Of a DNA stretch of 64,000 bases, positions 26,033 through 27,817 are shown piece by piece. The translations under genes were made by a program, and so were the position numbers. Position 1 is the first letter of the stretch. Each line of letters opens with the position of its first letter. The stretch is from Eubacteriales bacterium. GTDB taxonomy: Bacteria > Bacillota > Clostridia > Acetivibrionales > JANLFN01. Below the pieces are notes generated by a model that saw only the letters and a program-made list of their open reading frames with translations, was not told the origin of the DNA and made no database searches. The DNA is taken from positions 1 to 64,000 of the forward strand of contig JANLFN010000004.1 in the NCBI GenBank assembly GCA_024655885.1. Direction: 5' to 3'.

Positions 26033-26566
26033 TCAAGATTCAGGCTCAATTAATCCGTAATTGCCGTCCTTTCTTTTGTAAACCACATTAACCTGCTTTG
26101 AATCCGCATTGGAAAACACGAAAAACTCATGTCCTATCAGATTCATTTGCAATATGGCCTCTTCCACCGTCATAGGTTTAATGGCGAACTTTTTAGTCCT
26201 TAAAACCTTGAACTCCTGTTCCTCTTCCACATCCTGACTGAAGCCGGAGCCGCCATCAAGCTTGAAAGCATTTGCATGCAGCTTTTTTTGCAGCCTGGTT
26301 TTATATTTGCTTATCTGCCTTTCAACGATATCCGCCGCTTTGTCAATGGACGTATACATGTCGCTGTCCGCAACTTCCGCTCTAATGACCATCCCGTTGA
26401 AAGGAATGGTAACCTCCACAATTTGCCTGTTCTTCTGGACACTCATTGTTACCTGAGCCTCGGTATCCTCATTGAAAAATTTCTCAATTTTCCCCAGTTT
26501 CTTTTTTACCTTTTCTTGTAAGGCTTCTGTAATATCCATATTCTTTCCGCTGACTTTAAATCTCAT
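26033..26566 (-). CDS. hpf: Ribosome hibernation promoting factor, long form
   Basis: Binds the 30S decoding channel and joins ribosomes into inactive 100S dimers in stationary phase. It has 177 residues: an N-terminal S30AE domain (1-105), a linker, and the C-terminal dimerisation domain (about 122-177, FAIKPMTVEEAILQMNLIGHEFFVF). The ATG at 26566 (MRFKVSGKN) is 12 bases from AAAGGAG; a GTG three codons earlier is too close to it. It is transcribed away from the DnaA-box region. Confidence 0.95.
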   Translation of the reverse strand: MRFKVSGKNMDITEALQEKVKKKLGKIEKFFNEDTEAQVTMSVQKNRQIVEVTIPFNGMVIRAEVADSDMYTSIDKAADIVERQISKYKTRLQKKLHANAFKLDGGSGFSQDVEEEQEFKVLRTKKFAIKPMTVEEAILQMNLIGHEFFVFSNADSKQVNVVYKRKDGNYGLIEPES

Positions 26567-27285
26567 ATGCACCACTGGCTCCTTTCATTTTTTTGTTTAG
26601 TATTGCAAAAATCGGTTTTGTATATAATAAGATAAGCCAAATTTTCCAAAGAATCGTAAAATTCTTTATACCGGGTATTTTCAATCCAATTGAGAAAATT
26701 TGATCATCTTACGGGTCGAGCAATACATGGTAAAGTCTTGTGCACAAATATTATTTCTACATCAAGCAGATAGATTCCTCTTAATAAATATAATATGCAT
26801 GAAATTTTGCTTTAATAATTTGTAAGACCCACAACCCTGTTTTATGAATTTACCTCCGGCTTATCCACAGTTCTTTCACAAAACAGGTGTTTTGTGCATA
26901 TAAGTTCTGTGGATAATGTGAATAAAACTGTGAATAATTTAAATCAGCTTGTTTTGGCTGTGGATAACAATGTTGCTTTCTATTTTTATTTTTTTGTTGT
27001 TATGTAAAGTACAGTAAAACGCAGAATTAAAAAAATGTAACATTCATATATTTTTTATTGTTTTAATTGTTTATATTGAAAAAAATGCGCCACACTCCTA
27101 TGGAAACCAGAATAGAATACCCTGGGTAAACAAAGTGCTCCGCAGCAGAATTCAATTCGGGAAGCGGAGCACAAGAATCAGAATGTGCATTTTTAATATT
27201 TTGAACACACTAAAAATTCGGTGTGTTGAAAAACACCAGAATGTCCATAGAAAAACTATTTTTCTCTTCTTTACGCAGTAAGGGA
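26567..27285. other. 700-bp intergenic region with DnaA boxes and hairpins
   Basis: No gene of convincing length is present. It contains the hpf leader, a cluster of five DnaA boxes (26861-26967), a very AT-rich stretch (about 26985-27085), and two hairpins: GTGCTCCGC / GCGGAGCAC at 27135-27172 and AACACAC / GTGTGTT at 27204-27227. The latter are close to the end of the zinc-ribbon gene and may serve as its terminator. Confidence 0.7.
26861..26967. promoter_or_regulatory. Cluster of five DnaA boxes
   Basis: All five match TTATNCACA exactly. They are TTATCCACA on the plus strand at 26861-26869 and, on the minus strand, boxes at 26908-26916, 26917-26925, 26929-26937 and 26959-26967. Two are directly adjacent. 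AT-rich DNA follows. dnaA and dnaN are not in the window and gene orientation does not switch here. A DnaA titration or regulation site is therefore more likely than the main origin. Confidence 0.75.
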
Positions 27286-27573
27286 TTATTTATGATTTGA
27301 AAAGCATGAACTGCAATATACAGGCTTATCCAAATGTGGTTTGAAAGGAATTTTTGTCGGGGCCCCACAATCTGCACACACTGCATCATACATTTCCCTA
27401 TCCTTCTTCATGGATGAGTCTTTCCCCATCTGAGCTTTTCTGATACTTCTGCACTCCTTGCACCTGGTAGGCTCGTTCTGAAACCCTTTTTCGGCATAGA
27501 ACTCCTGCTCCCCTGCAGTAAATATGAACTCGCTGCCACAATCCTTACAAACCAAACTTTTGTCCTGGAACAT
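27286..27573 (-). CDS. Small zinc-ribbon protein with four CxxC motifs
   Basis: A 95-residue protein with CKDC (near residue 9), CKEC (near 38), CADC (near 67) and CSSC (near 88), which make two four-cysteine zinc sites. It matches the probable zinc-ribbon family in which CxxC pairs enclose an aromatic-rich AGEQEFYAEKGF segment. Function unknown; nucleic acid or protein binding is likely. A TTGACA-17-TATTAT promoter lies about 100 bases upstream. It is a monocistronic minus-strand gene. Confidence 0.8.
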   Translation of the reverse strand: MFQDKSLVCKDCGSEFIFTAGEQEFYAEKGFQNEPTRCKECRSIRKAQMGKDSSMKKDREMYDAVCADCGAPTKIPFKPHLDKPVYCSSCFSNHK

Positions 27574-27704: not shown

Positions 27705-27734
27705 GGATTTTAGAGAAGCGCAGAGACGGTGGGA

Positions 27735-27797
27735 AAAGGGCGGGGACAGTGGTTCCCCTTCCATGAGGTGGAAGGAGGAGCACCGTCCCCGCCCTTT
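27735..27797. terminator. Long GC-rich palindrome after metF
   Basis: AAAGGGCGGGGAC pairs with GTCCCCGCCCTTT across about 63 bases, with further pairing CTTCCA/TGGAAG near the centre. It lies 20 bases past the metF stop and is followed on the minus strand by TTTTCCC. It resembles the GGGGAC hairpin near 20742, so it may belong to a repeat family. Confidence 0.6.
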
Positions 27798-27817
27798 CCT
27801 TTTTCAGTTCTCCCGTC

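Follow-up and report, generated by a model that had tools for sequence, protein, structure and literature searches.

A conserved DnaA-box array upstream of hpf in Clostridia and related Firmicutes, a candidate DnaA-sequestering element outside the origin

A tight cluster of DnaA boxes upstream of a ribosome-hibernation gene, away from dnaA, raises the question of what DnaA would do at such a place. The locus lies in a 64,000-nucleotide stretch of DNA from Eubacteriales bacterium (contig JANLFN010000004.1), the whole of which was analyzed and is called the window here. An earlier note on this DNA had described five exact DnaA boxes in an intergenic region of roughly 700 bp, and both statements hold: the region covers 26576-27285 (about 710 bp, 31% GC), and all five exact matches to TTATNCACA fall within 26861-26967, starting at 26861 on the plus strand and at 26908, 26917, 26929, and 26959 on the minus strand. 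These coordinates reproduce its span of 107 bp, its four boxes on one strand and its abutting pair (26908 and 26917), and only two other exact boxes occur in the whole window (39302 and 49950). The region is bounded downstream by hpf, encoding long-form ribosome hibernation-promoting factor (26036..26575, minus strand; Pfam PF02482 and PF16321), for which the alignment of relatives makes the ATG at 26566 a more probable start than the GTG at 26575. Upstream of the array stands the gene for a small zinc-ribbon (treble-clef) protein (27286..27573, minus strand; Pfam PF13451 and PF23477). Between the zinc-ribbon gene and a methylenetetrahydrofolate reductase gene sits a long, near-perfect inverted repeat (GGGCGGGGACAGTGG...CACCGTCCCCGCCC, 27729-27807), present in one copy in the window. 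A known RNA element was rejected for the locus, as Rfam matches were at chance level only, and so was a mobile, phage or plasmid origin, as a 116-bp block had no blastn match in plasmid and phage collections.

Read along the hpf strand, the array begins with box 1 (exact TTATCCACA, 26959..26967, minus strand), followed by box 2 (TTATTCACA, or TTATNAACA in many relatives; 26929..26937, minus strand), which forms the first half of a 3-bp-spaced double box with box 3 (exact TTATTCACA, 26917..26925, minus strand), and then by box 4 (TTATCCACA, 26908..26916, minus strand), which abuts box 3 and is the best-conserved stretch (mean 1.86 bits/column). Two features absent from the earlier note come next: a 20-bp perfect palindrome CACAAAACAggTGTTTTGTG (26877..26896), unique in the genome, and a weak box 5 with one mismatch (ATATGCACA, 26893..26901, minus strand), which overlaps one palindrome arm. 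Beyond the palindrome lies the reverse-facing box (TTATCCACA, 26861..26869, plus strand), which is conserved in part. The general layout is thus box1-N21/23-box2-N3-box3-(0)-box4 on the hpf strand and then a palindrome CACAAAACAnnTGTTTTGTG, with start-to-start distances of 30 or 32 bp from box 1 to box 2 (about three helical turns upstream of the double box), 12 bp from box 2 to box 3, and 9 bp from box 3 to box 4. Genome-wide, exact boxes number 194 versus 72 for the reversed control, and two boxes lie at most 30 bp apart on one strand at eight places: three in the hpf array, two at oriC, one in a second cluster on contig C4 (see below), and two others.

The same box register recurs in the hpf upstream regions of essentially all 29 same-order relatives, some boxes being degenerate, and conservation of the boxes beside hpf, which the earlier note had proposed as a check, is therefore found, with fixed spacings. 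Across 32 aligned loci, information content reaches 1.4-1.9 bits/column in boxes 2-4 and 1.1 in the palindrome versus about 0.2 in the flanks, which are saturated among the aligned relatives while the array spacings stay fixed. Box 4 is followed by the palindrome core AAAACAnnTGTTTT at a constant 13-14 bp (measured to AAAACA) in 30 of these 32 loci, and the palindrome CACAAAACAnnTGTTTTGTG was found with at most one mismatch in 48/58 genomes of the order, usually in one copy. A role as operator for a broad regulon was rejected, since this genome has a single exact copy and genomes of the order have approximately one each, almost always located at the array. The palindrome's arms coincide in part with weak DnaA-like half sites in inverted orientation (including the weak box 5 of the window), and two Tissierellia-type loci (L079 and L084) carry two perfect inverted boxes in its place; on these grounds the palindrome may be a pair of DnaA sites or else the site of a separate protein. 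Other stretches follow the boxes elsewhere. In Desulfotomaculia-type and related arrays (L102, L104, L118, L119, L120, L129, L147, and L099), TTCGACA (reverse complement TGTCGAA, Spo0A-box-like) occurs approximately 40-50 bp after box 4 in place of the palindrome, and a GTCAAnnnRAACAnnYGTTTTGT-like stretch follows Lachnospiraceae-type arrays (L170, L171, L105, L115, L135, L145, L146, and L150), even beside unrelated neighbor genes. A looser version, GTCAANNNRAACANNYGTTTTGT, with 2 mismatches allowed, was no more frequent in Lachnospiraceae than its reversed control, so nothing is built on it here.

The triple-box motif TTATNNACANNNTTATNCACATTATCCACA extends well beyond the order. Allowing at most 3 mismatches, it was found in 141/291 Clostridia genomes, roughly half being without a match, versus only a handful for the reversed control; allowing one mismatch, it was found in 130/299 genomes across the phylum, versus 0 for the reversed pattern. 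Among the matches listed for Clostridia, 45 of 55 same-contig pairings place the array on the hpf strand and no more than 1 kb upstream of that gene, and nine further pairings place it 2.4-3.8 kb upstream. Thirty phylum-wide loci were examined, with 16 at hpf (window included), 1 at a comF-glnH block, 7 beside tsaD/gcp, and 6 elsewhere. Genomes with the triple box upstream of hpf include Lachnospiraceae-type (e.g., Anaerobutyricum hallii) and Desulfotomaculaceae-type members (Desulfoscipio and Pelotomaculum) and a Moorella MAG, as well as Thermobrachium, Caloranaerobacter, Thermohalobacter, Sporosalibacterium, and Alkaliphilus, Tissierellia-type loci among them. Since many families, in Clostridia and in related Firmicutes, keep the same spacing, the hpf array is very probably a real control site.

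Its neighbors are less constant. In three genomes of one family (L159-L161) the array has kept its place after the zinc-ribbon gene while hpf is elsewhere, the gene next to the array being convergent in L160, and in L162-L165 an ABC transporter stands between array and hpf. A strict tie between array and hpf was therefore rejected, as L159-L161 and other loci keep the array without an adjoining hpf. The zinc-ribbon gene flanks the array in many relatives, but a strict tie to it was rejected as well, since many array-bearing hpf loci are without this gene in the flank examined. In two loci of one family (L166 and L167) an array lies just downstream of a spo0A-like gene and not at hpf. Two complete genomes of one genus (L174-L177) have two extra arrays with the same triple-box geometry, the first lying between exoA and mrnC, the second near galU and a glycosidase gene, at 2.6-6.6% of the genome from dnaA.

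The window's own genome contains a sister site. Five further exact boxes are clustered on contig C4 (74784-75071), where they come right after tsaD/gcp in the gap between convergent genes, and at least 3 exact boxes occur within 800 bp downstream of tsaD in 24/30 relatives. In Bacillus subtilis, the strongest DnaA-bound regions include those "downstream of gcp; downstream of ydiF" (PMC4447404). The recovery of a homologous tsaD/gcp site with experimental support makes it more likely, by analogy, that the hpf array also binds DnaA. Like the B. subtilis DBCs, the sites described here are groups of several boxes clustered outside oriC, and the position downstream of gcp/tsaD is occupied again in this genome and its relatives; the hpf array differs in its fixed triple-box geometry and palindrome, and among the strong sites that PMC4447404 names for B. 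subtilis in its main text, none is an hpf-side array. The origin-proximal position of the DBCs is likewise seen in complete relatives, in which distances were measured, the window's assembly being in 65 contigs: the distance to dnaA is mostly 3-16% of genome length for hpf-linked arrays (or hpf), a single case reaching 25%, and 0.3-16% for arrays at non-hpf loci. However, hpf is origin-proximal even in genomes where no array was found (G174 and G118), which makes synteny part of the reason for where hpf-linked arrays lie, and only the non-hpf arrays test origin proximity independently.

We propose, with a probability of roughly 0.6, that the array is a non-origin, origin-proximal DnaA-box cluster working like the B. 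subtilis DBCs and E. coli datA, and the best reading of its sequence and distribution is that of a Firmicutes-wide, datA/DBC-like element that would sequester DnaA. Of the three possibilities that the earlier note had offered (a DnaA titration site, a control site for hpf, or an accessory origin), the titration site is the best supported, as the array is conserved, is origin-proximal in complete genomes, outlasts changes of its neighbors and recurs beside tsaD/gcp. Initiation comes early in B. subtilis when six DBCs are deleted, according to reviews citing Okumura 2012 (PMC13220808, PMC5295017), and E. coli DnaA in vivo prefers box pairs 2-3 bp apart, a kind to which the double box of boxes 2 and 3 belongs (PMC11317965). 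We infer that DnaA would occupy the array by binding this double box and spreading from it as a head-to-tail oligomer over boxes 1-4, and that array-bound DnaA would be kept away from oriC; doubling of the array soon after initiation would then damp premature reinitiation. The palindrome and the reverse box would probably shape or cap the complex, through a partner protein or through weak DnaA sites in inverted orientation. Simple titration needs neither fixed spacing nor a palindrome, which counts against sequestration in its plainest form, and the two features suggest a complex more specific than plain titration.

A possible but doubtful alternative is that DnaA acts as a transcription factor of hpf, binding upstream of a sigma-H-like promoter and repressing or activating it, such that hibernation would follow the replication state. 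The array stands next to hpf far more often than next to any other gene, and the sigma-H-like hpf promoter AGAGGAATCTATCTGCTTGATGTAGAAATA (26752..26781, minus strand, the window copy with 2 mismatches) is conserved, occurring with at most one mismatch in 26/30 relatives when about 2 are expected by shuffling. Within the window's order, box 4 precedes the -35 element by a median of about 132 bp (interquartile range, 125-167), a distance tighter than that from array to start. In Desulfotomaculia-type loci, however, the same promoter lies about 450-600 bp downstream of the array, and where the array stands upstream of the ABC transporter or faces a convergent gene, hpf is kilobases distant or at another locus. 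In B. subtilis, sda is under DnaA control, and the sda promoter resembles the present locus in having DnaA boxes upstream of a gene for the transition to a resting state, but the candidate target here is hpf, and the array survives without it. A search of mainly open-access literature found neither a DnaA link to hpf nor a DnaA site at hpf. A side role of the array in timing hpf transcription, compatible with the promoter arrangement, is possible.

We consider it unlikely that the array instead acts on the nucleotide state of DnaA in the manner of datA or DARS, with the palindrome serving as a partner-protein site or as inverted weak DnaA sites, although some of its features point that way. 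The fixed spacing and a nearly genome-unique palindrome at a set distance from box 4 exceed the needs of titration. The same-direction boxes with conserved spacing recall E. coli datA (PMC5742627), which also has same-direction boxes with a required spacing, an origin-proximal position and a 3-bp-spaced double box (PMC5742627, PMC11317965), whereas other genes surround the hpf array. On the far side of the palindrome, the opposed box is reminiscent of the head-to-head DARS core (PMC5742627), E. coli DARS1 and DARS2 likewise having a short core of boxes, fixed in spacing, in which one faces the rest; in contrast, the array here consists of three tandem boxes and a palindrome, and its opposed box is only partly conserved among relatives. 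The tsaD array of this genome is without the palindrome, and B. subtilis is stated to be without IHF, datA, and DARS in a 2026 review, which also regards the existence of a B. subtilis system balancing DnaA-ATP versus DnaA-ADP as unknown (PMC13220808). A fuller version is similarly improbable: a Firmicutes-wide element at comF-hpf-secA with a sister at tsaD would carry a defined DnaA complex, built on four tandem boxes and on a palindrome that may recruit a partner, and this complex would alter DnaA activity or nucleotide state and couple initiation to hpf expression, making the element a Gram-positive counterpart of datA/DARS.

That the locus is an accessory or former chromosomal replication origin is highly improbable. 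Clustered DnaA boxes near AT-rich DNA would fit an origin, and the AT-rich flank reported in the earlier note is real (19% GC at 26968-27067), but it lies 5' of the four tandem boxes, opposite the side expected for an unwinding element, the 3' side having 31% GC. The true oriC is found at dnaA, on another contig (C10:91633-92115), in agreement with the claim that no dnaA or dnaN is near the array; it has the canonical dnaN-dnaA-rpmH order, boxes on both sides and a DnaA-trio TAGTAATAATAGTAATAA in the dnaA-dnaN interval, whereas no trio was found in the hpf region. Within the window, GC skew keeps its sign across 26.9 kb, and gene orientation, as had been observed, does not flip at the array. 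The accessory-origin reading is thus disfavored by the missing trio, the misplaced AT-rich side, the absence of a flip and a bipartite oriC elsewhere. Finally, a short, AT-rich pattern such as the DnaA box could recur by chance as a common 9-mer where the DNA is AT-rich, but such a fortuitous cluster has a negligible probability, since none of 20,000 first-order Markov simulations of the intergenic region gave more than 3 boxes and conservation of the box spacing across many families already refutes it.

To our knowledge, DnaA limitation in Firmicutes outside Bacillus is poorly known, and a DnaA control site on the hpf side, as proposed here from comparative sequence analysis, is very probably undescribed. 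A short DNA element with position and geometry conserved phylum-wide, paired with the experimentally known gcp site, provides a concrete target. If functional, its conserved place beside a ribosome-hibernation gene would link replication control to dormancy.
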